The notes under the pieces: generated by a model
The model's database searches: none
Told to the model about the DNA's origin: nothing
What the model saw: only the letters and a program-made list of their open reading frames with translations
From: Photobacterium sanguinicancri
GTDB taxonomy: Bacteria > Pseudomonadota > Gammaproteobacteria > Enterobacterales > Vibrionaceae
Direction of reading: 5' to 3'
Assembly (NCBI RefSeq): GCF_024346675.1
Contig: NZ_AP024851.1
Span: 434,001-498,000, forward strand
Length of the DNA stretch: 64,000 nt
Program-made: the position numbers and the translations under genes
Part shown: in pieces, positions 30,705-49,127 of the stretch
How positions within the stretch are numbered: the first letter of the stretch is position 1
Layout: each line of letters starts with the position of its first letter

Positions 30705-30831
30705 TTTGTTTAAATGAGATTTGTTTTCAATTAGAATCGATATTGTTTTAAGCCCGGCTTGGTTCGGGATTCTTTATTTTTAGTTTTTATTATTTTTTCT
30801 ATTACGTCATTTTATGTTTAAGAGTAAGAAA

Positions 30832-31611
30832 ATGAAGGGATTTAAGCCTTCGCTAGTATGTCTAGCGCTGAGTATTGCCATGGGTGCACAAGCGAACAGC
30901 TTGGACAGTGCCCGTGCTGTCGAAAACAAGATCAACAAAGCTTCTGCTGTTAGTCAGACCAAAATTGATAAAAGTGCAGAAGCAGCTTTGACGATGCAGG
31001 CTGAAATTGAACAGCTTCAGGAAGAAGTGAAAAACCTGACAGTTTACCGTGATCACATGGCACGCTTAGTGGCGAACCAAGAGCAAGAGAGTGCGAGCCT
31101 AACCGATCAAATTCAGGGCATTAAAGATACGCGTCAAGGCGTGGTCCCTCTAATGTACAAAATGATCGATGGCCTAAAGGTTATCATTGCACAAGATAAA
31201 CCGATTAAGCGTGACCAACGATTAGCACGTATTGCCAAGCTAGAGCTGATGATGTCACAAGCTGATATCAGTGATGCAGAAAAATACCGCCGTATTTTAG
31301 AAAGCTACCAAATTGAAATGGATTACGGCACTAAGCTGGGTGTTTATCAAGGTGAGCTTGCACTTACCTCCAGCGATACTATTGAAGCTGAACTGCTTTA
31401 TCTAGGTCGTATCTCGCTAGTGGCTCGTAGCTTAGACGGCAAGCGATACTGGACGTGGAACGATCAAAATGCAGGCTGGCAAGCCCTTGATTCACAGTTC
31501 TCATCAGGGGTTGATAAAGCCTTCGCGATTGCAAACAAACAAGTCGCGCCAAGCTTGATAAACCTTCCTGTATCTTTGCAAGCAACAACAAATAACGTGG
31601 AGACGAAGTAA
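30832..31611 (+). CDS. DUF3450 family periplasmic protein of the TonB2 operon
   Basis: About 259 residues with a signal peptide (cleavage after ANA/QA, around residue 21) followed by a long coiled coil (AALTMQAEIEQLQEEVKNLTVYRDHMARLVANQEQESASL) and a conserved C-terminal domain with RISLVARSLDGKRYWTWNDQNAGWQAL. This is the DUF3450 protein that begins the TonB2 operons of vibrios. I chose the ATG at 30832, preceded by TAAGAG, over that at 30814. The next gene starts two bases after the stop. Its exact role is unknown; it probably supports assembly or function of the TtpC-ExbB2-ExbD2-TonB2 complex. Confidence 0.85.
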   Translation: MKGFKPSLVCLALSIAMGAQANSLDSARAVENKINKASAVSQTKIDKSAEAALTMQAEIEQLQEEVKNLTVYRDHMARLVANQEQESASLTDQIQGIKDTRQGVVPLMYKMIDGLKVIIAQDKPIKRDQRLARIAKLELMMSQADISDAEKYRRILESYQIEMDYGTKLGVYQGELALTSSDTIEAELLYLGRISLVARSLDGKRYWTWNDQNAGWQALDSQFSSGVDKAFAIANKQVAPSLINLPVSLQATTNNVETK

Positions 31612-31612
31612 C

Positions 31613-32941: not shown

Positions 32942-33495
32942 TGGGATTCAGTCTTTCAGAAGCCTTGCATTCAACGGTTTTCGAAGCCTGGTGGTTGTCA
33001 CTATCACATTTCATGGACCAAGGCGGCCTTATTTTATGGTGGTTGGCCGCCGTGGTTGTACTGTGCTGGTTGTTGGTGATTGAACGCGTCTTGTATTTAT
33101 TTGTGACTTATCCTGCTCAGAAAAAGCAGTGGTTAGCGCAATGGCATCAACGTGACGATCAAACATCTTGGTATGCGCATGCTATCCGCGATGGTTGGTT
33201 AAGCGAAGCGCGTATCGCCCTTAATCAGAATCTGAATTTGATTAAAGTGTTAGTGGCTATTTGCCCTATGTTGGGCTTACTTGGCACGGTAACCGGTATG
33301 ATCTCGGTATTTGATGTGATGGCAACGCAAGGTAGTAGCCAACCACGATTAATGGCATCAGGTATTTCTTTAGCGACTTTACCGACGATGGCGGGCATGG
33401 TTGCTGCGTTAGCGGGAATGTTTGTTCACGCACGTTTATCAAAAGCGTGTTTATGGCGTGAACAAAAACTAGAAAAATTATTAAGGAGCCGATGA
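32941..33495 (+). CDS. exbB2: ExbB2 proton-channel protein
   Basis: A 184-residue inner-membrane protein of the MotA/TolQ/ExbB family with three helices. The channel motif is LVAICPMLGLLGTVTGMISVFDVMA, followed by ASGISLATLPTMAGMVAALAGMF. It forms the energy-harvesting complex with ExbD2 and drives TonB2. It is translationally coupled at both ends: TAATG with ttpC and ATGA with exbD2. Confidence 0.92.
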   Translation: MGFSLSEALHSTVFEAWWLSLSHFMDQGGLILWWLAAVVVLCWLLVIERVLYLFVTYPAQKKQWLAQWHQRDDQTSWYAHAIRDGWLSEARIALNQNLNLIKVLVAICPMLGLLGTVTGMISVFDVMATQGSSQPRLMASGISLATLPTMAGMVAALAGMFVHARLSKACLWREQKLEKLLRSR

Positions 33496-33899
33496 TGAGA
33501 CTTAGTCGTCCATCTTCCGCACGTGAAGAAGCACAAATCGATATGACTTCCATGTTGGATATTGTATTCATCATGTTGATTTTCTTTATTGTTACTAGCT
33601 CTTTTGTGCGCGAATCAGGTGTCGAAGTGAATCGCCCACAGGCAAGTAATGTTGTGAGCAAAAAAGATGCGGGCATTTTTGTTGCTATCACTTCAGCTAA
33701 CGATATTTACATTGATAAGCGTGTTATCGATGTAGAGCGTGTGCAAGCCACGTTAGAGCACTTGCTGCTCGAACAACCAGAAGCCTCATTAGTGATTCAA
33801 GCGGACGAACATGCTTATAACGGCACAGTCGTTAAAGTGATGGATGCGGCAAAAGGTGCGGGTGTTAAGAGTATTGCATTGGCTGCGGAGAAGAGCTAA
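33492..33899 (+). CDS. exbD2: ExbD2 biopolymer transport protein
   Basis: A 135-residue protein with one membrane helix near the N-terminus. It has the functional Asp in IDMTSMLDIVFIMLIFFIV, the proton-responsive residue in ExbD/TolR proteins, and a periplasmic C-terminal domain. AAGGAG precedes the ATG. It overlaps exbB2 by four bases and tonB2 by one. Confidence 0.92.
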   Translation: MMRLSRPSSAREEAQIDMTSMLDIVFIMLIFFIVTSSFVRESGVEVNRPQASNVVSKKDAGIFVAITSANDIYIDKRVIDVERVQATLEHLLLEQPEASLVIQADEHAYNGTVVKVMDAAKGAGVKSIALAAEKS

Positions 33900-34513
33900 T
33901 GCGTCGATTATTGATCGCTTTACCTTTAGCGGTTGTGGTGACTTTGGGCTTGTTCACGTTTATGGCATGGATGGTCGATAACGGCCATCGAGGTAAACCT
34001 GAGTCAGGTGAAGTCTTAGCTTTTGATATGGTGATGGTCGAGCAAGAACGCGATGCGCAGCGTCGTCAACGTGCCGTACCTGAAAAGCCTGATACACCAG
34101 AACCACCGCCAGAAGCAAAACCGATGGCGAAAGCACAAGCTGTTGCGACCTCGATGCCGAACACACCGACCTTAGCACTAGATATGGCAGCGACAGGTGT
34201 AGCGATTAGCATGCCTGAGTTTTCTGATTTTGGCGCTAATCAACAAGCGATGCCGCTCTATCGTGTCGAGCCCCGTTATCCTGCTCGCGCCTTGAAACAA
34301 GGTGCTGAGGGTTTTGTGGTGATGTCGTTCACCATAGATCCGCAGGGTAGGCCAACGGATGTCGCTATATTAGATGCAAAACCACGTCGCTTATTTGAAA
34401 AAGAAGCGATTCGAGCACTGCGTAAATGGAAGTACCAGCCTAAAGTTGTTGATGGTAAGGCGATTGCGCAAGTTGGACAAACGGTAAGACTGGAGTTCAA
34501 ATTAAGCAAATGA
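33899..34513 (+). CDS. tonB2: TonB2 energy-transducing protein
   Basis: A 204-residue short TonB: an N-terminal membrane anchor (LLIALPLAVVVTLGLFTFMAWMV), a brief Pro-rich spacer (PEKPDTPEPPPEAKP) and the C-terminal TonB domain (YPARALKQGAEGFVVMSFTID through FEKEAIRALRKWKYQP). It transmits proton-motive energy to outer-membrane receptors such as the one at 28572. The short spacer is typical of the TonB2 class. It overlaps the TPR gene at ATGA. Confidence 0.92.
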   Translation: MRRLLIALPLAVVVTLGLFTFMAWMVDNGHRGKPESGEVLAFDMVMVEQERDAQRRQRAVPEKPDTPEPPPEAKPMAKAQAVATSMPNTPTLALDMAATGVAISMPEFSDFGANQQAMPLYRVEPRYPARALKQGAEGFVVMSFTIDPQGRPTDVAILDAKPRRLFEKEAIRALRKWKYQPKVVDGKAIAQVGQTVRLEFKLSK

Positions 34514-35730
34514 TCAAGACATTAACTAAAACCTTAGTGCTACCTTTAGGCGTCGCACTTGGCCTTGCTTTTAGTAGCAATATCGCCACCGCAGGTGAAC
34601 AACTGTCGCAATATACGGCGGGCAAAGTTCAGCGTGCACATCAATTGCAGCAGGACGAAAAAACAGCAGAAGCGATTGCGTTATTAGCGGGTTTAACGCC
34701 GTCAAAAGCTTACGATAAAGCTTTTGTTCAACGTATGCTCGGGGTTTTTTATTGGCAACAGGGTAATACTAAACTAGCGATTAGCAATTTAACTCGAGCG
34801 GTTGATAGTGGTTTGTTGCTCGATGAACAAGCGTGGATCACTCAACGTATGCTGGCTGATATCTTGTTATCGAATGAAGAATTTAAACAGGCGCTACCGC
34901 ATTACTACGCGTTAACCAAGTCTATCCCTGAGAATCAAAAAGCCGATGAACTGTGGCTACGTATAGCGCAGTCTCACTATCAGCTTGAAGATTGGAAGCC
35001 GGTATTATCTGCGATCAAGCGCTATGAAAGCCTACATCGTAAAGATGAAGTTCAGCCGTTAACAATCAAGTTGGGGGCACAGCTTCAGTTGCAACAATGG
35101 AAGTCATCATTACCAACTTTACAGCGCTTGATTATCTTAGAGCCGAATAAGTTGGTTTGGTGGCAACAAACGGCTGGGATTCAATTACGTCTGAGCCGTT
35201 CAAAAGATGCATTAGCTACTTTAGCGTTGGCTAAACGCCAGGGTGTCGAGTTGAGTCAGCAAGATCTTCGCACTTTAGCACAGCTTTATGCTCAGCAAGG
35301 TATTCCTGAACGAGCAGCTAAGTTATTAGCTGAACTTGATAATGCGCAAGCGGATGCTCAGCTGTTAGCCGATCAAGCCTCTTATTGGCAAATGGCGAAA
35401 GAGTGGGATCAATCTATTCGGTATTGGCGTTTAGCGGCGGCCAAAAACAATAAGCACCGTTGGGCGCTGGCACAGTTGCTATTGCAAGAAGGTAGGCATA
35501 AAACGGCATTGAAAGAGCTCGATAAAGTGTCAGGACGAAAATCAGATGTCGAGTTAGCGCGGGTACGTGCTTACTACAAACTGGAATCGTTTGAACAAGC
35601 ACTCATTCATGCTAAACGTGCCAACAATATTAAAGCGAGTCCTGCGTCAAAAAGCTGGATTAAGTATTTAACGCAGATGCGTAAAATGCAGCAATCACAA
35701 GTGAATGAGCCACAACTGACAGCAATTTAA
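34510..35730 (+). CDS. Periplasmic TPR protein of the TonB2 operon
   Basis: A 406-residue protein with a signal peptide (cleavage near ATAG, residue 29) and about eight to nine tetratricopeptide repeats across its length (for example VQRMLGVFYWQQGNTKLAISNLTRAVDSG). A TPR gene ends TonB2 operons in Vibrio. It probably provides a protein-binding platform in the periplasm for the energising complex or for receptors. It is translationally coupled to tonB2 and followed by a strong hairpin. Confidence 0.85.
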   Translation: MIKTLTKTLVLPLGVALGLAFSSNIATAGEQLSQYTAGKVQRAHQLQQDEKTAEAIALLAGLTPSKAYDKAFVQRMLGVFYWQQGNTKLAISNLTRAVDSGLLLDEQAWITQRMLADILLSNEEFKQALPHYYALTKSIPENQKADELWLRIAQSHYQLEDWKPVLSAIKRYESLHRKDEVQPLTIKLGAQLQLQQWKSSLPTLQRLIILEPNKLVWWQQTAGIQLRLSRSKDALATLALAKRQGVELSQQDLRTLAQLYAQQGIPERAAKLLAELDNAQADAQLLADQASYWQMAKEWDQSIRYWRLAAAKNNKHRWALAQLLLQEGRHKTALKELDKVSGRKSDVELARVRAYYKLESFEQALIHAKRANNIKASPASKSWIKYLTQMRKMQQSQVNEPQLTAI

Positions 35731-35836: not shown

Positions 35837-36203
35837 ACGTTTATTTGAGATAAAATGTAACACCAATGGAAAAATCAGACCTAAATCATAATTGAGAACT
35901 TTATTATTAACGGCAAGCTAGAGACTAAACGTCTTAAATGTTTTCGCTTAATATTAAATCGCCAAATGTTAGCGTTATGTATACAGAGTGATCTGTTTTC
36001 GTTTCATTTCTCTTGTTTTAGTTTGTTTAAATTACGTCAGACTTTCATTTTAACATCTTGTTAACGCCGCGATATCCGTGTCATTACCTTAATGTGCCCC
36101 TGTCACACATTGTAAGTATCTTCCAGTTTGTCCTTGTCTAATCCCCTATATTCCCTTCATCGAATCTCCAATGCTCTACACACATAATAAAGGATTGATA
36201 ACG
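35837..36203. promoter_or_regulatory. Control region of the sugar ABC operon
   Basis: About 365 A/T-rich bases with no gene. The promoter of the binding-protein gene must be here. A TGTG/TCACA pair near 36092-36110 has the wrong spacing for a good CRP site. AAAGGA provides the ribosome binding site. Confidence 0.4.
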
Positions 36204-37178
36204 ATGAAAAAGGTTTTGTTCAATGTTGCTGCCCTTACACTTGCTTTAGCTACGGCAGGCGTTCAGGCAAAAGACTATGAAATTGTGAACGTCGTGAAGG
36301 TGTCTGGTATCCCATGGTTCAACCAAATGAACAAAGGTATCGATCAAGCAGCTGTTGATTTTGGCGTGAATGCGCGTCAACTTGGCCCATCAACCCCAGA
36401 TCCTGCTCAGCAAGTTAAGATCATTGAAGATCTGATTGCGAAAGGGGTAGATGCAATCACAGTTGTACCTAACGATGTGACGGTTTTAGAGCCTGTATTT
36501 AAGAAAGCTCGTGAGAAAGGCATTATTGTCCTAACTCACGAATCACCAGATGGCCACAGTGCAGACTGGGATATTGAAACCATTGATAATCAAGCTTATG
36601 CCAAAGCAACCATGGATGAGCTTGCTAAAAATATGGGCAAGAAAGGCGGATATGCGGTGTACGTTGGCTCGTTAACTGTACCATTACATAACAACTGGGC
36701 AAACTTAGCGATTGATTACCAAAAAATGGCTTACCCAGATATGTATGAAGTGACCAGCCGTATGCCGGTTGCAGAGAGCATTGATGCATCATATGCAGCG
36801 ACCAATGACTTAATGAAAGCGCACCCAGATATGGCGGGTATCGTTTCTTATGGTTCACTAGGCGCTATTGGTGCGGGTGAAGCGATTAAGAAGAAACGTG
36901 CTAAGAACAAAATGACCACAGTCGGCATCATGATGCCAAGTCAGGCTGCACCATATTTGATGCGCGGTGAAATTGATAAAGGTTTCTTATGGAACCCAGC
37001 GGATGCGGGCTATGCCATGGTTGCTGTTGCTAAGCAAATGCTGGATGGCAAGAAAGTGGCTGACGGTGTGACTATCGACAACCTTGGTGTGGCAGAAATC
37101 GATAAAGAAAAACGCGTGATCAAGTTTAACAAAATCCTTGAAGTGGATAAGTCAAACGCACGTGAATTAGGTTTCTAA
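36204..37178 (+). CDS. Periplasmic sugar-binding protein (RhaS/LsrB-like) of an ABC importer
   Basis: About 324 residues with a signal peptide ending GVQA (residue 22). The mature protein is a cluster-B type I periplasmic binding protein: two Rossmann-like lobes, with VKVSGIPWFNQMNKGIDQAAVDFG, then VDAITVVPNDVTVLEPVFKKAREKGIIVLTHESPD and GIMMPSQAAPYLMRGEIDKGFLWNPADAGYA. It resembles the rhamnose/autoinducer-2/pentitol group. The ATG at 36204 gives a normal signal peptide; the frame opens earlier at 36171. First gene of the five-gene sugar operon. Confidence 0.88.
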   Translation: MKKVLFNVAALTLALATAGVQAKDYEIVNVVKVSGIPWFNQMNKGIDQAAVDFGVNARQLGPSTPDPAQQVKIIEDLIAKGVDAITVVPNDVTVLEPVFKKAREKGIIVLTHESPDGHSADWDIETIDNQAYAKATMDELAKNMGKKGGYAVYVGSLTVPLHNNWANLAIDYQKMAYPDMYEVTSRMPVAESIDASYAATNDLMKAHPDMAGIVSYGSLGAIGAGEAIKKKRAKNKMTTVGIMMPSQAAPYLMRGEIDKGFLWNPADAGYAMVAVAKQMLDGKKVADGVTIDNLGVAEIDKEKRVIKFNKILEVDKSNARELGF

Positions 37179-37202
37179 CCGATATTTCTGTAAACCTTAT
37201 AC

Positions 37203-37225
37203 AGGGCAGTGCAATGCTGCCCTTT
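37203..37225 (+). other. Intercistronic hairpin after the binding-protein gene
   Basis: GGGCAG, loop, CTGCCC then TTT, between binding-protein and ATPase genes. Such hairpins protect the upstream mRNA and cause partial termination, giving excess binding protein over membrane parts. Confidence 0.65.
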
Positions 37226-37240
37226 AGCTGGAAATCCATC

Positions 37241-38734
37241 ATGTCAAACGAAGCATTCATTACCTTAAAACGTGTATCCAAACACTTTGGTTCCGTTAAG
37301 GCCCTTGATGGCATCAACTTAACCTTTAATAAAGGGGAAGTGCATTGTCTTGCAGGAAAAAACGGTTGCGGAAAAAGCACGCTATTTAAAGTTATCTCTG
37401 GGGTTCATGCACCTGAAAAAGGGGCAGAGATTATCCTGGATGGTAAAAGCTATTCTCAGCTAAATCCGCAACAATCCATTGAGCACGGTATCCAAGTTAT
37501 TTACCAAGACTTATCTTTGTTTCCCAACCTGACTGTCGCTGAAAATATTGCAGTACAAGACCACATGGCTTGGACCAAAGGCCTTGTTAAGCAATCTCGT
37601 TTGAATACTATTGCGCAAACAGCGATGGATAAAGTGGGTGTCTCGCTACCGTTAACCAAACGTGTAGAGCAACTGTCGATTGCAGAATGTCAGTTGGTTG
37701 CTATTTGTCGTGCCATGGCTTCAGACGCCAAGCTGGTGATCATGGATGAACCGACAGCTTCGTTAACCCGTACTGAAGTGAATAATTTAATAAGCGTTGT
37801 TGCTGATCTTAAGTCTAAAGGCATCACAGTGGTGTTTGTTAGCCACAAGCTTGATGAGGTAATGGAAATCTCTGACCGTATAACGGTTATTCGCGACGGT
37901 AAAACCATAGGTACCTACCCAGCAGAAGAGATGAACAGTGATGAACTGGCTTTCTTGATGACAGGACAGCGTTTTGAATTTTCGCCATTGGGAGAGTACA
38001 AGCAACAAGGCGAAGTGAAGCTTGAGGTCAATAATCTAACCAAAAAAGGCCAGTTTGATGATATTAACCTGCAAGTACGTGCTGGTGAGATCGTGTCGAT
38101 AACGGGTTTACTTGGCTCTGGTCGTACAGAATTATGTTTAGCGCTATTTGGTATGACGAAGCCCGATAGTGGTCAAATAAAAGTGAATGGTAAACCGGTG
38201 GCGTTTAGCTCAAATAGAGATGCGATTGAGCACGGTATTGGTTACGTGTCAGAAGACCGAATGAGCACAGGGTTAGTCATGGAGCAATCGATCCAAGACA
38301 ACACAACCGCGACGGTTTTACCTCGATTAAGAAAACAAAATGGTTTCCTCGACCACGTTAAGGCGACCCATTTAGTTAAAAAGCTTATTTCTTCGTTATC
38401 AATCAAAGTTGCCGATCCTATGTTACCTGTGACGAGTTTATCGGGTGGTAATGCGCAGCGTATTTCTATCGCAAAATGGATTGCCGCAGAGCCTGAGGTA
38501 TTAATCCTCGACTCCCCAACGGTTGGCGTTGATATTGCGAATAAAGAAAGTATTTACCAGATAGCAAAAGATCTCGCGTTGAAGGGGATGGCAATCATTA
38601 TGGTCAGTGATGAAATTCCTGAAGTGTTTTATAACAGTCACCGTGTGATCGTGATGAAAGATGGACGTTTTTCTCATGATTTTCATCCAGTAACATCGTC
38701 AGAAAAAGAGATCATGGAGGCCGTCAATGCGTGA
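37241..38734 (+). CDS. Sugar ABC transporter ATPase (RbsA/XylG type, two ATPase domains)
   Basis: About 497 residues with two tandem nucleotide-binding domains. Domain 1 has Walker A GKNGCGKSTL (around residue 45), a variant signature EQLSIAECQLVAICRA and Walker B LVIMDEPTA. Domain 2 has the reduced Walker A TGLLGSGRTEL, signature SLSGGNAQRISIAKW and VLILDSPTVGVD, as in ribose-type transporters. The ATG at 37241 (MSNEAF) lies after the hairpin and is preferred to 37214. It overlaps the next gene by eight bases. Confidence 0.92.
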   Translation: MSNEAFITLKRVSKHFGSVKALDGINLTFNKGEVHCLAGKNGCGKSTLFKVISGVHAPEKGAEIILDGKSYSQLNPQQSIEHGIQVIYQDLSLFPNLTVAENIAVQDHMAWTKGLVKQSRLNTIAQTAMDKVGVSLPLTKRVEQLSIAECQLVAICRAMASDAKLVIMDEPTASLTRTEVNNLISVVADLKSKGITVVFVSHKLDEVMEISDRITVIRDGKTIGTYPAEEMNSDELAFLMTGQRFEFSPLGEYKQQGEVKLEVNNLTKKGQFDDINLQVRAGEIVSITGLLGSGRTELCLALFGMTKPDSGQIKVNGKPVAFSSNRDAIEHGIGYVSEDRMSTGLVMEQSIQDNTTATVLPRLRKQNGFLDHVKATHLVKKLISSLSIKVADPMLPVTSLSGGNAQRISIAKWIAAEPEVLILDSPTVGVDIANKESIYQIAKDLALKGMAIIMVSDEIPEVFYNSHRVIVMKDGRFSHDFHPVTSSEKEIMEAVNA

Positions 38735-39725
38735 TCGTATTTGTTTAAATTGGGCTGCTTTAATCAAGCGCCACGAGTTTTATCTCGCTGCTCTAATTGG
38801 TTTAATGGTTGTTGGTTTAGGTGTGAGTTCAGAGGACTTTCTAACCTTAGGCAATATCTTCGATATGTCAGTAAGTTCGGCCATTTTGGGCATCATGGCT
38901 TGTGGACTGTTTGTTGTTTTGATTGCGGGCGGGATTGATATTTCATTTCCAGCAACCGCCGCAATTGCGCAGTATGTGATGGCGACGTATGTACTGTCGA
39001 TTGGTGGCAACTTCTTTATCGCATTTTTGATTGCAGCAGCCGTGGGCATGTTACTTGGTCTTATTAATGCCGCATTGGTGTATAAGCTCAAAGTGCCAGC
39101 CATTATCATCACGATTTCAACACTGAATTTGTTCTTTGGCTTACTGATTTACTTTAGCAATGGCGCTTGGCTATACGGTTTCCCTGATTGGTTTATGGAT
39201 GGCGTTGAGTTGTTCAGCTTTGTGGGTAGCGATGGCTACGATTATGGGCTTTCACTGCCAATCATAACCTTGGTTGCTGTTGTTTTATTTACGTCTTTCT
39301 TAATGTCTAAAACCCGTCTTGGACGCCAGATTTATGCGATGGGCGGTAATGCCGATGCTGCAAGTCGAATTGGTATTAATTTATTCGGCATTCATTTGTT
39401 TGTATACGGCTACATGGGCGCACTTGCTGGTATTGCTTCTGTTGTCCAAACCCAAATCACTCAATCAGTGGCGCCAAACTCGTTAATGGGTTTTGAGCTT
39501 ACCGTACTTGCAGCCGTGGTATTAGGCGGAACAAGCATGACAGGTGGTAAAGGAACACTAATGGGGGTGGTTCTTGGGGTGGCATTATTAGCCATTATGA
39601 AGAACGGATTAACATTGCTCGGTGTTCCATCTTATTGGCATGCGGTTGTTACTGGTCTCATCATTGTATTCAGTATCAGTATGACGGCACTGAATGAAAA
39701 GAAACAAGCATTGCAGGGGGCATAA
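38727..39725 (+). CDS. Sugar ABC transporter permease 1
   Basis: A 332-residue inner-membrane permease of the ribose/xylose (BPD_transp_2) family with eight to ten helices. The coupling region and C-terminal hallmark GFELTVLAAVVLGGTSMTGGKGTLMGVVLGVALLAIMKNGL are intact. It pairs with the next gene, since this transporter class uses a heterodimer here. Overlaps flanking genes at both ends. Confidence 0.92.
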   Translation: MRDRICLNWAALIKRHEFYLAALIGLMVVGLGVSSEDFLTLGNIFDMSVSSAILGIMACGLFVVLIAGGIDISFPATAAIAQYVMATYVLSIGGNFFIAFLIAAAVGMLLGLINAALVYKLKVPAIIITISTLNLFFGLLIYFSNGAWLYGFPDWFMDGVELFSFVGSDGYDYGLSLPIITLVAVVLFTSFLMSKTRLGRQIYAMGGNADAASRIGINLFGIHLFVYGYMGALAGIASVVQTQITQSVAPNSLMGFELTVLAAVVLGGTSMTGGKGTLMGVVLGVALLAIMKNGLTLLGVPSYWHAVVTGLIIVFSISMTALNEKKQALQGA

Positions 39726-40684
39726 TGGATCAGGTATTGAACGCATTAAAACTACCGACTGATAGAAATATCCGTTATTTATTAGTTATTTTAGCCAGTA
39801 TTATTGCCATCATGGCTATCGCGAGTGGGGACACTTTTTTCTCGATAGCAAATTTACAATCGATGTCATCGCAAATGCCATTACTGGGAATGTTAGCGCT
39901 CGCGATGGCGGTATGCATGCTAACTGGTGGTATTAACCTTTCTATCATTGCAACAACCAACGCGTGTAGCCTAGTGATGGCAAGTATTATCACCATGGCG
40001 CCCGATAATGTCATGGTACTGCTATTAGCCTTAGTAGCTGGTTTAATTACTGCGATTGTTATTGGCTTACTCAATGGTGCTTTGATTGCTTATGTCGGGG
40101 TTTCGCCAATATTAGCAACACTTGGGATGATGACATTAATCAATGGTCTCAATGTGCTAATTTCTGGCGGCAGTGTGATGTCTGGATTCCCAGAGGCATT
40201 ACTGGTGATCGGCAATGGCTCGATATTGGGCATTCCTATGCCGTTGTTCCTCTTTGTCTTTTTCGCAATTGGTTTATGGGGTTTACTTGAGCATACCAGC
40301 CTTGGACGCACTATTTACTTGATGGGCTCGAACGAGAAAGCAACGCGTTTCTCTGGTATTAACACCCAAAAGGCAGTGCTGTATGTCTATGCTATTTCAT
40401 CGATTCTTTGTTGGGTTGCTGCCCTTGTCATGATGGCGAAATTCAATTCAGCAAAAGCTGGTTACGGCGAGTCTTACTTACTGATTGCTATCTTAGCATC
40501 GGTACTTGGGGGGATTAACCCTGATGGTGGTTTTGGCCGAATCATAGGTATTGGCTTGGCATTGGTTGTATTACAAACGTTAGAAAGTGGCTTGAACTTA
40601 CTTGGTGTCAGCAGTTATCTGACAATGGCTCTTTGGGGGGGCATTTTAATTCTATTCATTACCCTGCAAAAACGTAAAGCTTAG
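39725..40684 (+). CDS. Sugar ABC transporter permease 2
   Basis: A 319-residue permease of the same family as its neighbour. It has [46 protein letters not shown] near the C-terminus and [17 protein letters not shown] in the middle. The presence of two different permeases is typical of LsrCD, RhaPQ and pentitol systems rather than homodimeric RbsC. TAATG overlap with permease 1. Confidence 0.92.
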
Positions 40685-40697
40685 TGGAGAGAGCAAG

Positions 40698-42332
40698 ATG
40701 AGTATTTATTTTATTGGCGTTGATGTTGGTAGTGGCAGTGCAAGGGCGGGAGTTTTCGACGCCTCTGGTCGAAAACTCGGGGAAGCAAAACGCGACACAG
40801 AAATGTTTAAACCTCGTGCAGATTTTGTTGAACAATCGTCAGAGAACATCTGGCAAAGTGTGTGTATGGCAGTAAAAGATGCTGTCTCTAAAGCGAATAT
40901 TGATCCAGTCCAAGTCAAAGGTATTGGCTTTGATGCAACCTGCTCACTGGTTGTGCTTGATAAAAAAGGGTTACCACTCACGGTGAGCCCAACAGGTCGC
41001 AGTGAACAAAATATTATTATGTGGATGGATCACCGTGCAATTGCGCAGGCTGAGCGGATTAATGCAACTGAACATCCAGTATTGGCTTATGTTGGCAACC
41101 GTATTTCACCTGAAATGCAAACGCCTAAGTTACTTTGGCTAAAGCAAAATATGCCAAATACATGGTCTCAAGCTAAGTACTTTTTTGATTTACCTGATTT
41201 TCTAACATGGAAAGCAACGTTTGATGATAGTCGTTCGCTTTGCTCTACCGTGTGCAAATGGACGTACCTTGGCCATGAAAATAAATGGGATACGCACTTT
41301 TTCGAGCGTATTGGGTTAGAAGATTTATTGGCTGATGATGCAAAAGCCATCGGTAATGTGATTAAACCAATGGGTGCCCCGGTAGGTGAAGGTTTAACGG
41401 CTCATGCAGCCAATGATTTAGGTTTGATGCGTGGTACGCCTGTTGGCACATCAATTATCGATGCTCATGCTGGTGGTATTGGTGTGTTAGGCGCTGCGGG
41501 TATGACGGGTGAAACGGCAGACTTTAATAAACGCTTAGCATTAATTGGTGGTACATCATCGTGTCATATGGCCGCGTCAAAAACAGCGCGTTTTATTGAT
41601 GGCGTGTGGGGAGCTTATTACGGTGCGATGATCCCCGATCATTGGCTAAATGAAGGTGGTCAGTCTGCCACTGGGGCATTAATTGATCATGTGATTACGT
41701 CGCATCCACTTCATGACCAATTGAAATCGCAAGCAACAGAAGAGGGAACGACGGTTTATCAACTACTCAATGATCACTTATTGAAGCTAGCAGGTACCAA
41801 AGAAGACATTGCGTTTTTAACAAAAGATATTCATGTGTTGCCTTATTTCCATGGTAACAGGTCGCCACGCGCAAACCCTAACCTAACAGGTACAATGACA
41901 GGGTTAAAAATGTCGAAAACAATCGATGATATGGCGCTGGCATACCTAGCGACAATTCAGGCGATAGCATTGGGTACTCGACACATCATTGAGGTGATGA
42001 ACCAAGCAGGGTATGAGATTGATACCATCATGGGTTGCGGTGGTGGTACTAAGAACACGATTTTCATTCAAGAGCATGCTAATGCGACAGGGTGTGTGAT
42101 GGTACTCCCTGAAGAGAGTGAGGCCGTGTTATTGGGCTCTGCAATGCTTGGCTCGGTGGCGTCTGGTTTTTATTCGGATATTCCTAATGCCATGAATGCG
42201 ATGAGTCGTATTGGACGTGCTGTCACACCACAAACCGATAGAATTAAGCGTTTCTACGATATGAAATATCAAATATTCCATCAAATGTATGAAGACGATA
42301 TGAAGTACAAACAGCTAATGTCTGAATTCTAG
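40698..42332 (+). CDS. FGGY-family pentulose kinase (D-ribulokinase-like)
   Basis: A 544-residue sugar kinase. N-terminal FGGY domain: [18 protein letters not shown] binds ATP phosphate, and [11 protein letters not shown] and WMDHRA are typical of the D-ribulokinase/FGGY subgroup. C-terminal domain: [29 protein letters not shown]. It should phosphorylate the sugar brought in by the adjacent importer, feeding pentose phosphate metabolism; D-ribulose is the best guess and other pentuloses are possible. Last gene of the operon, 13 bases after permease 2. No isomerase, epimerase or regulator is linked. Confidence 0.85.
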
Positions 42333-42412: not shown

Positions 42413-42453
42413 TGAATCACAATGAAAATTATTATCACTTAAAATGTGATTCA
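42413..42453. repeat. Inverted repeat embracing the Fur box
   Basis: TGAATCACA (42413-42421) and TGTGATTCA (42445-42453) are perfect 9-bp complements with 23 bases between, and the Fur core lies exactly between them. A second dyad, CAATGT-AA-ACATTG, lies just upstream (42394-42407). Confidence 0.8.
42423..42437. promoter_or_regulatory. Fur box of the PepSY/DUF2271/metal ABC cluster
   Basis: TGAAAATTATTATCA matches the 7-1-7 Fur core at 13 of 14 defined positions, 43 bases upstream of the first gene. It predicts repression by iron. A Zur or Mur site would look related, so the metal is not certain. Confidence 0.7.
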
Positions 42454-42480
42454 TTCTGATTTACCACTGAAACGTAATTG

Positions 42481-43107
42481 ATGCTAAAGAATAAAACAGT
42501 GCAGCTATGGTCTCGTCGACTGCATATCTACATTTCCATGGCCTTACTGCTTGTCGTGCTGTTTTTTGCCATTACGGGCATCACGCTAAATCGCCCACAC
42601 TTATTTGTGAAAAGTCAGCCTGATATTACAGAAATAACGTTAGCTATCCCCGAATCATTACTGCATTCAGAAAAAGGGCAGTTCAGCCCCGATGAAGCGC
42701 GTTTACTGACTTATTTAACAAAAGAAGCGCAGGTATCCGGTCAACCTTCTGGCTTTAATGTTTACCGTGATATTGAAGACGGTGAGCTGATTGAAGGCGA
42801 AGTCGCAGTGGATTTTAAAGGCCCTGGTTTTAATTCGGCAGTTTTCATCGATATGACAACCCAAGAAGCTGTGATTGAAAAAACACATTATGGCTTAGTA
42901 GCGGTGCTGAATGATTTACACAAAGGCCGTAATAGTGGGGAAGTCTGGCGCTGGTTTATTGATATTACCGCCTTATTAATGGTGTTTTTCGTTCTTACTG
43001 GCGTGTGTCTACTTATTCCTAAAAAGAAAACGTTAAAAACGTCGTTGAAATGGATGACGCTAGGTACAGCAGTCACTTTATTTATCTTTTTTGTTGCAGT
43101 GCCTTAA
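42481..43107 (+). CDS. PepSY-type membrane protein
   Basis: A 208-residue protein of the PepSY-associated transmembrane group. Helix 1 (about 15-38; LHIYISMALLLVVLFFAITGITLN) carries the early His typical of these proteins. A periplasmic PepSY-like domain follows (about 40-150), ending in the conserved YGLVAVLNDLHKGRNSG with further His. Then come two helices. Relatives act beside periplasmic flavin or haem redox proteins and in ferric reduction. It opens the nine-gene cluster behind the Fur box. Start at the ATG 42481, after an in-frame TTG. Confidence 0.85.
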   Translation: MLKNKTVQLWSRRLHIYISMALLLVVLFFAITGITLNRPHLFVKSQPDITEITLAIPESLLHSEKGQFSPDEARLLTYLTKEAQVSGQPSGFNVYRDIEDGELIEGEVAVDFKGPGFNSAVFIDMTTQEAVIEKTHYGLVAVLNDLHKGRNSGEVWRWFIDITALLMVFFVLTGVCLLIPKKKTLKTSLKWMTLGTAVTLFIFFVAVP

Positions 43108-43198
43108 TGGGCGTTTATTCGGTCAATACCGCTCTGCAATCGTAATGCTTCACCTTAACTCTATAGAGTTAATTGCTTCATATATCAAGGATTATCTG

Positions 43199-43729
43199 AT
43201 GAATTTGGCATTAAAAACCGTGTTGAAATCTAGCGCACTTGTTGCTGCATTATCAGCACCATTAATGGCACAAGCAGCACCAATACCAACAAACGCCCAA
43301 ATGGATGTGGAGTTTGAAATACCTTACATCAAGGCGTCGCCATATGCGCGCCCTTACGTCGCAATTTGGATTGAAGATGCTAACCGTAAACCTGTTCGCA
43401 CCATTGAGCTGTGGGTTGGTAAAGATGAGTGGCTAAAGGATTTACGCAGTTGGTGGCGCAAAGTAGGGCGTTACGATCGCGAACTGGTTGATGCAGTGAC
43501 GTCTGCAACCCGTACTGTCGGTGAATACCGTTTCACGTGGGATGGATTAGATGATTCAGGTCAGCGTGTCGAGCAGGGCGAATACACATTTTATGCTGAA
43601 TCTGTGCGTGAGCACGGTGGCCGTAGTGTTATTCGTCAAAAACTGAATCTAGCAGATAAAGCTTTCAAAATAGACATTAAGCCAGCAGTGGAAATTGGCA
43701 ACGTCGTGCTGACATACAAAATTAAATAG
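43199..43729 (+). CDS. DUF2271 periplasmic protein
   Basis: A 176-residue exported protein with signal peptide ending AQAA (about residue 23). The body matches DUF2271: PYVAIWIEDANRKPVRTIELWVG, WWRKVGRYD, VDAVTSATRTVGEYRFTWDGLDDSGQRVEQGEYTFYAES. The VTSATRT segment resembles the D-x(2)-S/T-G-A-T/S type motif used for covalent FMN attachment, though the match is loose. DUF2271 proteins occur with PepSY proteins. The ATG at 43199, preceded by AAGG, is the real start; the frame opens at 43091. Confidence 0.85.
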   Translation: MNLALKTVLKSSALVAALSAPLMAQAAPIPTNAQMDVEFEIPYIKASPYARPYVAIWIEDANRKPVRTIELWVGKDEWLKDLRSWWRKVGRYDRELVDAVTSATRTVGEYRFTWDGLDDSGQRVEQGEYTFYAESVREHGGRSVIRQKLNLADKAFKIDIKPAVEIGNVVLTYKIK

Positions 43730-43746
43730 GACTTAAGAGAACAATC

Positions 43747-44583
43747 ATGATCAAAAATAACAAAATGAAAGCGGCAGCACTTGCTTGCACTGTATTCGCT
43801 GGTTTAGCGGTTTCTGCTGTTGCAAATGCACACCCTCGTTGGATTCTGCCATCTCATTTCACCGTATCAAAAGAGGGTGGTGATTGGTTGACATTTGATG
43901 TAACGGCTTCGCACGGCACCTTTGTTTTTGATAAGCCTGCAGGCAGTGAGTCAGCGCAAGTATTGATGCCAGATGGTCGTTTTGAGCGTCCAAACTTTGT
44001 GATTCGTGGCAAGCGCCGTTCTATTTTTGATTTCCACTTTTCAGAAGAAGGTACGCACAAAGTTGCGGTAAATAACGAACCATCATACTGGACAGAATAT
44101 AAAGCGGGTCGCCGTGACACAGTTAAGTGGGCAAAAGCATCAAAAGCTGAGCGCGAAATGCTGCTTCCTGAAAAGGCGCGTGACGTTGTCACTAAAATCA
44201 GTTTTACCCGTGCTGAATCTTACATCACTGTGGGTAAGCCAACGCAAAAAGCATTGGAAATTGAAGGTAAGCTGCTTGAGCTAAAACCCATTACACACCC
44301 AGCAGATATTGTTGAAGGCGAAGAAGTGACATTCCAAATGTTCTTCAATGGTGAGCCTCAGAAAGGTGTAACTGCCGACATTACGCGTGAAGGTAGCCTT
44401 TACCGTAACCACCAAGAGCAAATCGAAGTGGAAAGTGACAAAGACGGTTACATCCGTTTTGTTCCTGAACATGCTGGACGATACCTAATGCGTGCACATT
44501 ACAGTGGTGACCTTAAAAACCACCCACTAGCAGACAAAGCTGGCGTGAATGTTCACCTAACATTTGAAGCGGTTCTTCAGTAA
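43747..44583 (+). CDS. DUF4198 periplasmic protein
   Basis: A 278-residue exported protein with a signal peptide ending ANA (about residue 28) and a mature N-terminus HPRWILPSHFTVSKEG, a His-led start typical of DUF4198. Beta-rich, with a second Ig-like part near the C-terminus (EEVTFQMFFNGEPQKGVTADI). Family members are found beside nickel, cobalt, iron and zinc uptake genes and are thought to bind metal in the periplasm. It lies 17 bases after DUF2271. Confidence 0.85.
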   Translation: MIKNNKMKAAALACTVFAGLAVSAVANAHPRWILPSHFTVSKEGGDWLTFDVTASHGTFVFDKPAGSESAQVLMPDGRFERPNFVIRGKRRSIFDFHFSEEGTHKVAVNNEPSYWTEYKAGRRDTVKWAKASKAEREMLLPEKARDVVTKISFTRAESYITVGKPTQKALEIEGKLLELKPITHPADIVEGEEVTFQMFFNGEPQKGVTADITREGSLYRNHQEQIEVESDKDGYIRFVPEHAGRYLMRAHYSGDLKNHPLADKAGVNVHLTFEAVLQ

Positions 44584-44638
44584 TTATACCCATTTGACCA
44601 ATTACTTAATTGAATTGGTATTACTTTTAGCTCTTATA

Positions 44639-44662
44639 GAAAGCCTGCATCGGCAGGCTTTT
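44639..44662 (+). terminator. Hairpin with T run inside the metal cluster (possible partial terminator)
   Basis: GCCTGC, ATCG, GCAGGC flanked by A and T runs, between the DUF4198 gene and the next. The later genes have no obvious separate promoter, so it probably attenuates. A second weak dyad CCAATT/AATTGG is at 44597-44617. Confidence 0.65.
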
Positions 44663-44681
44663 ACTCTTTTTCGAGGTTGTT

Positions 44682-44999
44682 ATGCAAAAGCAAATCGCGC
44701 TTTTCTTATTCTCATCAGTTGCTCTTTTCTCTACATCGGCTCAGGCACACTTTCCTCTTATGAGTTGTTGGTTTGCGGCTGATCAGGTTGTCTGCGAGGC
44801 GGGCTACAGCGACGGCAGTACTGCGGTTGATTACGATATTAACCTTTATGATTACGACGACAATTTAATTGCGAAAGAGAGCACGGATAAGGCATCAAAA
44901 GTGAGTTTTTCTAAACCTGATACTGACTTCTATATCGTGTTTGATGCAGGCCACGAAAATCCTGTGGAAGTTGACGTTGTAGAGATATCTGAAAAATGA
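44682..44999 (+). CDS. Small periplasmic protein of unknown function
   Basis: A 105-residue exported protein with a signal peptide ending AQA (about residue 22), then HFPLMSCWFAADQVVCEAGYSDGS. The mature protein begins with His and has two Cys placed for a disulfide, then a small beta domain (NLYDYDDNLIAKEST). The His-first start recalls the DUF4198 protein before it. GAGGTT precedes the ATG. Overlaps the next gene by four bases. I do not know a named family. Confidence 0.75.
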   Translation: MQKQIALFLFSSVALFSTSAQAHFPLMSCWFAADQVVCEAGYSDGSTAVDYDINLYDYDDNLIAKESTDKASKVSFSKPDTDFYIVFDAGHENPVEVDVVEISEK

Positions 45000-45607
45000 T
45001 CACCCAAAAAGTACACTCCGATAACGGGGGGCGAGAAGGGAAGTGGGTTGCTTTATCGATCATACTTATCTTGCTGGTTTCGGCTGTGTTACTCCCTTAT
45101 CACAAGCAACAATCAACTACTGCTGAGTTAGCTCAGCATCAAATTGCGGTTGCAGACATCGAGCAGAAATCACTGGGTTTAATCGCTGATTTACGTCTGG
45201 CACATGAAGAAGTAAGAAATCTATACTTTGATGCACTTGAGCAACAAGTGAATGTGACTGATGTAGACCTTACCGATAGCACTGTAAGTCAATGGGTTAA
45301 TATTGCTGAGTTACGCGATATGTGGCTGCCTCCTTTTATTGAAGATAAAAGTTGGGAATTTCAAGGTAAACATCAGTGGACATTGATTGCGCCAGCGACT
45401 TACCAGGGCATCGCTCAGACGCATGATGGAGCTAAATCTCTAGTCTTGATTGCCGCGCATGAAGAACCTGAAATTTGGTTAGACCTGAATAATAACGCGG
45501 CGCCAATGATGGCATCAGATACGGTTATTTCTGATCAAATGCTAATTGATGCTAGCTGGATCCAAATTGCATTTGAACAATCAGGCTCTGCTCCTCACGG
45601 GCATTAA
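44996..45607 (+). CDS. DUF6162 membrane-anchored protein
   Basis: A 203-residue protein with one N-terminal membrane helix (about 20-38; VALSIILILLVSAVLLPY) and a periplasmic domain that begins as a helix (AELAQHQIAVADIEQKSLGLIADLRLAHEEVRNLYFD). It ends in a His-containing tail (SAPHGH). It fits DUF6162, a family I know only from clusters with zinc/manganese-type ABC importers. ATGA overlap with the preceding gene shows translational coupling. Confidence 0.75.
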   Translation: MITQKVHSDNGGREGKWVALSIILILLVSAVLLPYHKQQSTTAELAQHQIAVADIEQKSLGLIADLRLAHEEVRNLYFDALEQQVNVTDVDLTDSTVSQWVNIAELRDMWLPPFIEDKSWEFQGKHQWTLIAPATYQGIAQTHDGAKSLVLIAAHEEPEIWLDLNNNAAPMMASDTVISDQMLIDASWIQIAFEQSGSAPHGH

Positions 45608-45657
45608 TACGTCTTTTTGCTTTAAACATCGATACCCTTACTATCAGTGGTAACACA

Positions 45658-46614
45658 ATGATAAAAACTAAATCATCAGTAATTTCTTTCAAAGCGCTTT
45701 CATTCAAACAATTTTCACTGAAAGCAGCCTCTCTCTTTATTCTTTCCTTATTTAGTTCATTTTCTTATGCAGCCGATAAGATCAATATCGGGATCACTCT
45801 TCAACCTTATTACAGCTACGTAAAAGCAGTTGTCGGTGATAAAGCGGAAATTTTGCCTTTGGTTGATGCAGGTTTTAACCCACATAATTATCAGCCACAG
45901 CCGAATGACTTACGTCGTTTACGTGAAATGGATGTGATTGTGGTGAATGGTATTGGTCACGATGATTTTGCAATGAAAGTGATTCAAGCAGCTAATCGCA
46001 GTGATCTTGTTGTGATTGAAGCGAATAAAGATGTGCCTTTGCTTCCGGCAATGGGGCAGTCAGTGGGTGATGGTGCGGTAAATCCGCATACGTTTGTTGG
46101 TCTTTCAACCACCATTCAAAAGGTTTACACCATCGCTAATGAGATGGCGAAAATCGATCCAGAGAATGCCCGTTACTACCGTGCTAATGCGCGTAAATAC
46201 GCTACAACTTTTCGCAAAATGAAACACAACGCCATGATGACATTGGGCGACCTTGATACTGCTGGCATGACAGTGGCAACCACGCATAACGCGTACGGCT
46301 ACTTGCTTCAAGAGTTTGGTGTGGATGTGGCGACTGTGATTGAACCTGCACACGGCGTAGAACCTAGTGCTAGTCAGTTGCAAGAAACAATCGAGAAAAT
46401 CCGCAAATCAGGCATTGATGTTCTGTTTTACGAGCTAAACATGCCTAACCGTTATGTTGATACTATTGAGAAAGCAACTGGCGTTCAGCTGTACCGTTTT
46501 TCTCATATGACCCACGGCCCGTATGAGGCGAAAAAAGTTGAAATTGAAACGCGTGAGAACCTAAATACCTTGGTTGAAGCGATGAAATTTGCCGCTGAAA
46601 AGAAAGGTAGCTAA
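45658..46614 (+). CDS. Metal-binding periplasmic protein of a ZnuA/Mn-type ABC importer
   Basis: A 318-residue cluster A-I binding protein with signal peptide ending SYA (about residue 38). Candidate ligands are His76 (NPHNYQPQ), His144 (NPHTFVG) and His210 (THNAYGY), with an acidic residue (Glu259 in FYELNMPNR) late in the chain, as in Zn, Mn and Fe(II) binding members. There is no His-rich loop as in many ZnuA proteins, so Mn or Fe(II) is at least as likely as Zn. First gene of the ABC part of the cluster. Confidence 0.85.
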   Translation: MIKTKSSVISFKALSFKQFSLKAASLFILSLFSSFSYAADKINIGITLQPYYSYVKAVVGDKAEILPLVDAGFNPHNYQPQPNDLRRLREMDVIVVNGIGHDDFAMKVIQAANRSDLVVIEANKDVPLLPAMGQSVGDGAVNPHTFVGLSTTIQKVYTIANEMAKIDPENARYYRANARKYATTFRKMKHNAMMTLGDLDTAGMTVATTHNAYGYLLQEFGVDVATVIEPAHGVEPSASQLQETIEKIRKSGIDVLFYELNMPNRYVDTIEKATGVQLYRFSHMTHGPYEAKKVEIETRENLNTLVEAMKFAAEKKGS

Positions 46615-46616
46615 CT

Positions 46617-47360
46617 GTGGGACCTTCAATTGAATTAAGAAATGTTGGACTGACGTACGGTGAAAACGTCATCTTACAAGATATAAACCACAGCTTCACT
46701 GCTGGCGAATGCCATATTGTTATGGGGCCAAACGGTGGCGGTAAAACCTCGCTATTACGCTCTATTTTAGGGCTAACCCCTTTCACTGGTGAAATCGATA
46801 TTCAGTGGCCTGAAAGCAAAGGCAAGCTTGGTTATGTACCGCAAAAAGCCATGTTTGAAGGCAGCCTACCTCTGACTGTGATGGATTTCATTCTATTAAA
46901 CCAAAGTAGCAGCCCACTATTTTGGCGTCAAAGTGCGAAGAATAAAGCGCGAGCTCTGACTCAACTTGAACGTGTTGGCATGGCAAGTCGTGCCGATCGC
47001 CGTATGGGGCAATTATCCGGTGGTGAACAGCAGCGCGTGTTGTTTGCTCAAGCATTACTTGATGATCCTCAGTTATTGGTTTTAGACGAACCAACAACAG
47101 GTATGGATGAGCAGGGTGTACGTTATTTAGAATCTTTGATTCATGAATTAGTGGCTGATAACCGAACTATCTTAGCCGTTCACCATGATGTAACTGCGGT
47201 TCGCCGTTTAGATGGTCATGTTCATGTTGTTAACCGCAGTGTTATTGATAACGGCAGTGTCGCGGAAGTATTAGTGCCTGAAAAAATTGAACGCTTGTTT
47301 AATCATTACACCGCAGCGTCATCGACTACAGAATCAAACAATAAGAAGGAGGTCGCATGA
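46617..47360 (+). CDS. Metal ABC transporter ATPase (ZnuC-like)
   Basis: A 247-residue ATPase starting at GTG 46617, with AAAGG upstream. Walker A GPNGGGKTSLLRS, signature QLSGGEQQRVLFAQAL, Walker B LLVLDEPTTG and the H-loop AVHHD are complete. It lies two bases after the binding-protein gene and overlaps the permease gene by four. Confidence 0.9.
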   Translation: MGPSIELRNVGLTYGENVILQDINHSFTAGECHIVMGPNGGGKTSLLRSILGLTPFTGEIDIQWPESKGKLGYVPQKAMFEGSLPLTVMDFILLNQSSSPLFWRQSAKNKARALTQLERVGMASRADRRMGQLSGGEQQRVLFAQALLDDPQLLVLDEPTTGMDEQGVRYLESLIHELVADNRTILAVHHDVTAVRRLDGHVHVVNRSVIDNGSVAEVLVPEKIERLFNHYTAASSTTESNNKKEVA

Positions 47361-48235
47361 TGGATATTGTTCGTCAATGGGCACTCTTGGGTGTGGATGC
47401 GGGTTGGTTAAGCGAAAGCTTTTCCTACGCATTTGTTGTTAATGCTGTCGTTGCCGCCTTGATGGTGGGTCCTTTGCTCGGTGGACTAGGCACCTTGGTT
47501 ATTGCTAAGCGTCTGGCCTTCTTTTCGGAAGCCGTAGGTCACGCAGCATTAACCGGTATTGCATTAGGCGTATTACTTGGCGAGCCGCCAGATAATCCAA
47601 TTATCGGCCTGTTTAGTTTCTGTATGATCTTTGCACTACTACTGCATTTCGTACGTAACCGAACCAATGTGCCTTATGACACTTTAGTGGGTGTATTCCT
47701 TGCGTTAGCATTAGCTGTTGGTGCGGCATTACTGATGTATGTTGCGCGTAAAATTAACGTTCACTTACTTGAAAACGTGCTATTTGGCTCGATCCTGACA
47801 GTAACAGACAGTGATTTATTGTTATTGGCAGGCAGTTGCTTGTTGATTGTATTGGTGTTGATCCCCACGTTTAATCGGATTTTATTAACCTGTATTAGCC
47901 CTGATATCGCCCGTGTACGTGGTTATGCGACCAATTTTTACGATTACCTGTTTGTCATGATGATCACCTTAGTGACTATCGCTTCAGTCAAAATCATTGG
48001 TGCTGTACTTGTGGGGGCATTATTGCTTATTCCTGGTGCGACGGCGCGATTACTTACCAAAAACATGGGTAGTTTTGTAGTGTTATCGGCGGTGTTAGCA
48101 ACCATTAGCTGCTTAGTCGGAACGATTCTCCCGATGGAGCTTAAACTACCGATCCCATCTGGTGCGGCGATTATTATTGTTTCTGCTATTTTCTTTTTGA
48201 CTGCGACTTTCTATCGCATCGTACGTAAAGGGTAA
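47357..48235 (+). CDS. Metal ABC transporter permease (ZnuB-like)
   Basis: A 292-residue ABC-3 family permease with eight to nine helices. Signature segments are GTLVIAKRLAFFSEAVGHAALTGIALG (coupling helix region), NVLFGSILTVTDSD and VKIIGAVLVGALLLIPGATARLL. GGAGG precedes two in-frame ATGs at 47357 and 47360. Forms the homodimeric pore of the importer. Confidence 0.92.
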   Translation: MMDIVRQWALLGVDAGWLSESFSYAFVVNAVVAALMVGPLLGGLGTLVIAKRLAFFSEAVGHAALTGIALGVLLGEPPDNPIIGLFSFCMIFALLLHFVRNRTNVPYDTLVGVFLALALAVGAALLMYVARKINVHLLENVLFGSILTVTDSDLLLLAGSCLLIVLVLIPTFNRILLTCISPDIARVRGYATNFYDYLFVMMITLVTIASVKIIGAVLVGALLLIPGATARLLTKNMGSFVVLSAVLATISCLVGTILPMELKLPIPSGAAIIIVSAIFFLTATFYRIVRKG

Positions 48236-48239
48236 TTCT

Positions 48240-49127
48240 GTGCTTCGATCATTATCGACTAAAAGTGTTCTATCAATCACTGCGTTAGCTATGGCGTTAT
48301 CAAGTACGACGGCGCTTGCTAAAGATATACTGACTGCGACACCAGTAACATACATGCTAGCGACGGAACTCACGAAAGGTACCGAGCTGACGACCGAGTA
48401 TTTGCCGCCTAAACGTTACGGTGTTTCACGTTTGCCGAATTGGTTTAGTAGTCAAGGTGCAGCAGCCACTGAAAAAGCAGCAAAAGAGGCAACAGTTGCG
48501 TTAACCCTAGGCGCTGTATGGGCCGATGATCCACTGTTTGTTTATGCTCGCCAAGGCAACATTAATATTATCGAAGTGGATGCATCCCAAGCGATATCAC
48601 CACGTGCAACAGGGGTTGCAGCACTACGTTTAGAGGATGGCTCGCTTTCTCCGTTTGCATGGCTTAATCCCTCAAACCTGAGCCGTATGGCTGCGATTGT
48701 GAGCGATGATTTACAGCGTGTATGGCCAGATAAAGCTGAAGTTATCCATAAAAATCAGCAGGCATTAATGGTGAATGTGCGCCAGCTAATCAACAAACAG
48801 CAGGCACAATTAATTGAAGCTAATATTGATTCCGTAATTCTCTTATCTACGGAACTCGAAGATTTTGCATCGGGTAATCAGCTCTTTGTGGTAGATCGTT
48901 TAACCTCACCAGAATTGGAGTGGACAGATGCTGATAAAGCAAATTTGAAAGCATCGTTAGAAGAAGATGAAACATTATGGATTCTAACCACTCGCAAAAT
49001 GAGCGCACAGCTAAAATCAATAGTACCGAATACAGATCGTGTTCTTGTGATTGATAGCTTAGATCGTTGGGGTAGGGTTGGCATTGACCAAAAAGCCCCG
49101 CTGAAACGTTGGCAGCTAGCTTTATAA
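48240..49127 (+). CDS. Second ZnuA-like binding-protein homologue with lost ligand histidine
   Basis: A 295-residue exported protein starting at GTG (AAAGGG upstream), signal peptide ending ALA (about residue 29). The fold and order follow cluster A-I metal-binding proteins: SPFAWLNPSNLSRMAAIVSDDLQRVWPD corresponds to the DPHxWLxP segment, but the ligand His is Phe139. The first and third ligand His are also not visible. It may bind no metal, or a different ligand, or act as a partner of the first binding protein. It ends the cluster and is followed by a terminator. Confidence 0.75.
   Translation: MLRSLSTKSVLSITALAMALSSTTALAKDILTATPVTYMLATELTKGTELTTEYLPPKRYGVSRLPNWFSSQGAAATEKAAKEATVALTLGAVWADDPLFVYARQGNINIIEVDASQAISPRATGVAALRLEDGSLSPFAWLNPSNLSRMAAIVSDDLQRVWPDKAEVIHKNQQALMVNVRQLINKQQAQLIEANIDSVILLSTELEDFASGNQLFVVDRLTSPELEWTDADKANLKASLEEDETLWILTTRKMSAQLKSIVPNTDRVLVIDSLDRWGRVGIDQKAPLKRWQLAL

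Follow-up and report, generated by a model that had tools for sequence, protein, structure and literature searches.

A cluster of nine genes in Photobacterium sanguinicancri probably encodes a Fur-repressed inner-membrane machine for stripping ferric siderophores of their iron in the periplasm and importing the metal as Fe(II). The cluster occupies 42481–49127 of a 64-kb stretch (the window), which covers positions 434001–498000 on one of the two contigs of a 5.5-Mb genome. The unit is real and conserved, and it is best read as periplasmic iron release of the Fpv type in which the reductase half is a different one and a TonB2-type system is often linked. The initial annotation had proposed that a periplasmic redox part and a metal ATP-binding cassette (ABC) importer stand together under Fur, and this core fits the comparative evidence: the gene order is kept in 78 of 80 loci, 69 of 78 relatives carry a Fur-like site, and genes 4–9 are kin to Fpv proteins.

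All nine genes lie on the plus strand behind the top-scoring Fur box of the window, and Pfam comparison and open reading frame (ORF) positions agree with the places and families first read from the sequence. Gene 1 (42481..43107, start codon ATG at 42481) encodes a PepSY_TM_like_2 membrane protein (1.7e-58), gene 2 (43199..43729, ATG at 43199) a periplasmic DUF2271 protein (4.9e-45) and gene 3 (43747..44583) a DUF4198 protein (4.8e-48). Gene 4 (44682..44999) matches no Pfam family over the cut-off. It is followed by genes for DUF6162 (gene 5, 44996..45607; 3.3e-13), ZnuA (gene 6, 45658..46614; 3e-51), ABC_tran (gene 7, 46617..47360; 9e-26), ABC-3 (gene 8, 47357..48235; 3.8e-53) and a second, weakly matching ZnuA (gene 9, 48240..49127; 1.9e-8). 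The nine genes are likely read as a single transcript; we go no further than likely because a terminator-like hairpin (44639..44662, plus strand) and a gap separate genes 3 and 4. This gap is at least 25 nt in 65 of 79 relatives, and the hairpin, a possible attenuator, may lower downstream expression.

The 80 loci are the best of 575 relatives in one collection scan and are therefore biased to close relatives; the rows are related and so are not independent counts, and some assemblies are shared with a separately scanned genome set. The loci come from Photobacterium, Vibrio, Aliivibrio, Moritella, Psychromonas, Ferrimonas, Motilimonas, Neptunomonas, Neptuniibacter, Nitrincola and Amphritea, and gene 6 of one of them (L070, also Photobacterium sanguinicancri) is 100% identical to that of the window. 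The two loci that break the nine-gene order are L110, which stops at a contig edge, and L148, which has no match to gene 1. Pseudomonas, which had been named beside Vibrionaceae as a place to look for the same order, keeps it for genes 4–9 only. In the separate set, 82 of 197 Vibrionaceae genomes carry DUF6162, 80 of them over the cut-off; among 398 genomes sampled from the phylum, 12 carry it, 11 over the cut-off.

Genes 4–9 match FpvJ, FpvK, FpvC, FpvD, FpvE and FpvF, in the same order, in five loci (G324, G429, G476, G500 and G532). We assign these loci to Pseudomonas because every organism name among the 120 matches listed for the FpvJ of one of them is Pseudomonas. Identities to the five loci are 33–38% for gene 4 (FpvJ), 26–30% for gene 5 (FpvK), 50–51% for gene 6 (FpvC), 40–43% for gene 7 (the FpvD ATPase), 55–57% for gene 8 (the FpvE permease) and 31% for gene 9 (FpvF). 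The small His-led protein and the DUF6162 protein, which had been grouped with the first part of the cluster, are both present, but as relatives of FpvJ and FpvK they belong with the importer half. Gene 4 keeps H23, the predicted mature N-terminus, together with C29, C38 and H91 in 79 of 79 relatives.

The predicted metal-binding protein of gene 6 matches PDB entry 6r3z, labelled a probable adhesion protein, at 299.8 bits, with the next unrelated protein at 86. The same entry matches the FpvC of Pseudomonas locus L051 at 523 bits, and we take it to be P. aeruginosa FpvC. Chain 6r6k has glycine in place of six histidines of gene 6, all six of which are present in 80 of 80 relatives. Across 11 compared sequences, gene 9 has none of the six metal histidines, and the one histidine it does have is not conserved in the 80 relatives. 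The reported division of labour in Pseudomonas is that FpvF binds the siderophore and that iron is bound by FpvC (PMC6954188). The early reading of an importer with a second binding-protein homologue holds for an FpvDE-like transporter with FpvC-like and FpvF-like proteins; its ZnuABC type is not supported and survives as a superfamily label. Genes 6–8 fall below the curated zinc cut-offs (ZnuA 50.4 of 268, ZnuC 131 of 306 and ZnuB 98.3 of 284 bits), and on sequence grounds the importer is FpvCDE-like rather than a ZnuABC system.

FpvGHJKCDEF of Pseudomonas aeruginosa frees and imports pyoverdine iron via reduction (PMC6954188). The cluster shares with it the relatives of J-K-C-D-E-F in order and the six-His site of FpvC. 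It differs in carrying PepSY_TM_like_2, DUF2271 and DUF4198 proteins for FpvG, a four-helix PepSY_TM protein, and FpvH, and in its TonB2-type link. None of the ORFs in the 80 loci has FpvG or FpvH as its best match. The region upstream of FpvJ was read in two Pseudomonas loci (L047 and L050, with Pfam run on L047), and both have a PepSY_TM protein (399 or 397 residues) and a protein at the FpvH position. The three proteins of genes 1–3 occupy the FpvG/FpvH place of the Pseudomonas cluster. Pseudomonas sp. ABC1 has fpvCDEFJK without fpvGH, likewise the importer half alone; for fpvGH the authors propose possible replacement by other genes, with none named in the passage concerned (PMC8085936).

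Gene 1, the proposed heme electron carrier, is the sole PepSY_TM protein found in the genome and keeps H15 and H147, histidines of the heme type, in 78 of 78 relatives. The DUF2271 protein of gene 2 is probably modified with flavin mononucleotide (FMN) by an ApbE encoded elsewhere, with T104 in DAVTSAT as the candidate site. D98, A103 and T104 are kept in 79 of 79 relatives, and position 102 is Ser in 72, Gly in 6 and Ala in 1. The flavinylation motif and the heme background have been described (PMC8238504, PMC11334425, PMC13038864). As first remarked, no ApbE is in view: the genome has two apbE genes and both lie outside the window. One of them (L002 1423–3641; G000:C2:397875–401714) adjoins a fumarate-reductase-flavoprotein-like gene about 34 kb before the window and is one of two candidates for modifying gene 2. 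The DUF4198 protein of gene 3 keeps H29, its predicted mature N-terminal residue, in 79 of 79 relatives. Its fold matches metal-bound Zcp and a Ni-bound DUF4198, and relatives in the family are reported to hold metal via the N-terminal histidine (PMC12537917).

The Fur box before gene 1 (42423..42437, plus strand, TGAAAATTATTATCA) fits 13 of 14 informative positions of the 7-1-7 consensus, which justifies its description as near-perfect. This score is unique in 64 kb; the next is one site with 12 of 14 positions at 28453..28467 on the plus strand, before a receptor gene. Counting sites with at least 11 of 14 positions within 250 bp 5′ of gene 1, we found one in the 69 relatives given above against 5.4% of shuffles, and 59 of the 69 sites fall at −70 to −50. 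At control genes 3, 4 and 6, such a site occurs in 2 of 79 relatives each. It is also present before the receptor gene in 10 of 13 cases and before ttpB in 14 of 31. The 9-bp inverted repeat in which the box had been seen to lie (42413..42453, arms 42413–42421 and 42445–42453) is real, but conservation extends to the box and not to the repeat: among the 78 relatives, the repeat with identical letters recurs only in L070, which is of the same species. One further relative, L081, also has 9-bp arms, with other letters.

Upstream on the plus strand lie a gene for a TonB-dependent receptor (28572..30668), the proposed outer-membrane partner, and a TonB2-type system in the order ttpB (DUF3450), ttpC, exbB, exbD, tonB and ttpD (tetratricopeptide repeat) at 30814..35730. 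The iron system probably extends to this receptor and TonB system, judging from their linkage in relatives. Within flanks of up to 10 kb, some shorter, 45 of 78 loci have ttpD upstream of gene 1, and 37 of 78 have a receptor of at least 45% identity there (30 with ttpD and 7 without). Among the matches listed, ttpC lies on the same strand 5.6–29.4 kb upstream of DUF6162 in 71 of 80 Vibrionaceae genomes, a count that omits G104 and G112 (below the DUF6162 cut-off) and further matches in G047 and G095. The nine unlinked genomes are all drafts; eight have TtpC on another contig and G144 has none among the matches listed. The window's genome has a single ttpC and a single DUF3450 gene over the cut-off. 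TtpC is 58–100% identical within the family among the matches listed, in a comparison that held no reference TonB2 or TonB3 sequence; TtpC2 and TtpC3 are reported to share 37% identity (PMC6957404). A sugar ABC importer and kinase block (36171..42332, plus strand) stands between the TonB system and the cluster. It is in the same place in 2 of 78 loci, L070 and L080 (Photobacterium rosenbergii), and is not thought part of the iron system.

The receptor shares 61% identity with a V. rotiferianus protein named PeuA in one source. Its closest solved structures, by sequence alone, are of the pyochelin, pseudopaline and ferrioxamine type. Enterobactin is doubtful as the general cargo, because its ferric complex lies beyond the reducing power of a heme or flavin protein. 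The genes peuA and tonB2 belong to a Fur-dependent operon in V. parahaemolyticus, where PeuA handles ferric enterobactin (PMC4141801). The arrangement there is similar, with a receptor gene ahead of a TtpC-TonB2 system; it differs in that the nine genes are unmentioned in the passages compared. In A. salmonicida, receptor and TonB genes are reported to be raised under low iron (PMC4324432).

Relatives of these genes also occur in other settings. The window's genome has a second set of FpvJ/NikL-like and DUF4198 genes, divergent from feoA-feoB (L177 5503–9620; G000:C2:205000–218000). In G832, one strand carries in succession genes for an FpvJ-like protein and a DUF4198 protein, then feoA and feoB (L179 7205–11120). 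Pseudomonas G476 has a second importer cluster of DUF6162, C, D, E, F and FpvJ-like genes, followed by a gene whose product resembles DUF4198 by eye (L048 7405–12905). In G864, again by eye, DUF6162-like and FpvC-like ORFs adjoin siderophore-ABC-importer-like genes and a receptor (L178 7239–8697).

Taken together, we judge with high confidence that the imported metal is iron, because of the Fpv kinship, the Fur-like site, the link to the receptor and TonB2, and the second pair beside FeoA-FeoB. Of the two metals first suggested, iron is favoured, and manganese is much less likely. For the cargo, the electron donor and path, and the flavin attachment, we infer the following scheme. The TonB-dependent receptor, powered by the TonB2 system, would admit a ferric siderophore, which the FpvF-like and FpvC-like proteins would hold. 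The heme membrane protein of gene 1 would pass electrons to the DUF2271 protein, and this protein, probably FMN-modified by an ApbE encoded outside the cluster, would reduce the iron. The DUF4198 and FpvJ-like proteins, each with a predicted free N-terminal histidine, may then hand Fe(II) to the six-His FpvC-like protein, from which the FpvDE-like transporter would carry it inward.

Several points weigh against this interpretation. Gene 2 has TSAT where the published flavinylation site reads [S/T]GA[S/T], and apbE is absent from the cluster and the 64-kb window, with none found by BLAST in the 80 loci. Nine of the 78 relatives (L105, L108, L136, L137, L139, L141, L146, L147 and L149) have no Fur-like site of at least 11 positions, and the internal hairpin may split the transcription unit. 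The text of the A. salmonicida study contains no match for PepSY or zinc, and its strain may or may not carry the cluster (PMC4324432). Neither ttpD nor a receptor of at least 45% identity was found within flanks of up to 10 kb in 26 of 78 loci. The metals reported for DUF4198 relatives are Ni, Zn, Co and Cu, not Fe (PMC12537917), gene 4 resembles NikL, below the cut-off (44.7 of 100 bits), and DUF1007 and NicO genes come after the second pair in the window's genome.

The 26 loci without a linked receptor or ttpD would suit an importer of free periplasmic Fe(III) or Fe(II) with no tie to siderophores, in which the reductase half, like VciB, keeps Fe(II) for the FpvDE-like transporter. As a motor, TonB2 is general, and gene 1 belongs to PF16357, the family of V. 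cholerae VciB, a reported iron reductase that aids Fe(II) transport (PMC8238504, PMC12004947). We nevertheless consider this unlikely: gene 9, an FpvF relative without metal histidines, points to a siderophore, and the receptor is upstream in 37 of the 78 loci.

The DUF4198 and NikL-like proteins might instead capture nickel or cobalt for the ABC part, a role in keeping with the NikL score of gene 4 and the DUF1007 and NicO neighbours of the second pair. An Ideonella DUF4198 protein binds Ni with a dissociation constant of 18 nM, DUF4198 genes adjoin those of NikR and TonB receptors (PMC12537917), and Zcp structures contain Zn, Cu and Co. However, the NikL cut-off is not reached, and Pseudomonas FpvJ, from an iron system, has a similarly weak NikL likeness (29.6 bits). 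The Fur-like site and FpvC kinship also argue against nickel or cobalt, as does the FpvJ-like/DUF4198 pair that adjoins FeoAB in two genomes. By Pfam, none of the nine genes is an energy-coupling factor gene as in NikKLMQO. These observations make a nickel or cobalt importer quite improbable. A standard Zn or Mn importer whose neighbours have nothing to do with it, for which the superfamily labels ZnuA, ABC-3 and AztABC would speak, is hardly credible, since genes 6–8 are below all curated Zn and Mn cut-offs shown, the genome already has a ZnuA over the cut-off (300.7 against 268 bits) and the order with genes 1–5 is kept in 78 of 80 loci.

Release of siderophore iron in the periplasm followed by Fe(II) import remains the preferred reading. 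An Fpv importer is joined to a different electron-delivery module, and therefore the cells probably strip siderophore iron between both membranes. A more complete line is offered tentatively, as a possibility somewhat short of even: the di-heme reductase FpvGH would be swapped for a heme-to-flavin relay from PepSY_TM_like_2 to flavinylated DUF2271; DUF4198 and FpvJ would be Fe(II) carriers to FpvC via free N-terminal histidines, with a related pair feeding FeoB; and TonB2, the general siderophore motor of Vibrionaceae, would be physically tied to the exit route. Known flavinylation clusters likewise have PF16357, PF10029 and PF10670 adjacent (PMC8238504). The present cluster differs from these in having no apbE, in TSAT for the published motif and in being joined to an Fpv-type ABC importer. 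We found no description of this gene combination in the literature searched.

Removal of iron from siderophores in the periplasm is best known from pyoverdine in Pseudomonas. If the interpretation is true, this would be a common iron route in marine bacteria, with many loci in Photobacterium, Vibrio, Aliivibrio, Moritella and Psychromonas and a TonB2-type system as a frequent neighbour. It offers testable roles for DUF2271, DUF4198, DUF6162 and FpvJ, and it provides a candidate for the step that follows outer-membrane passage via PeuA-type receptors.

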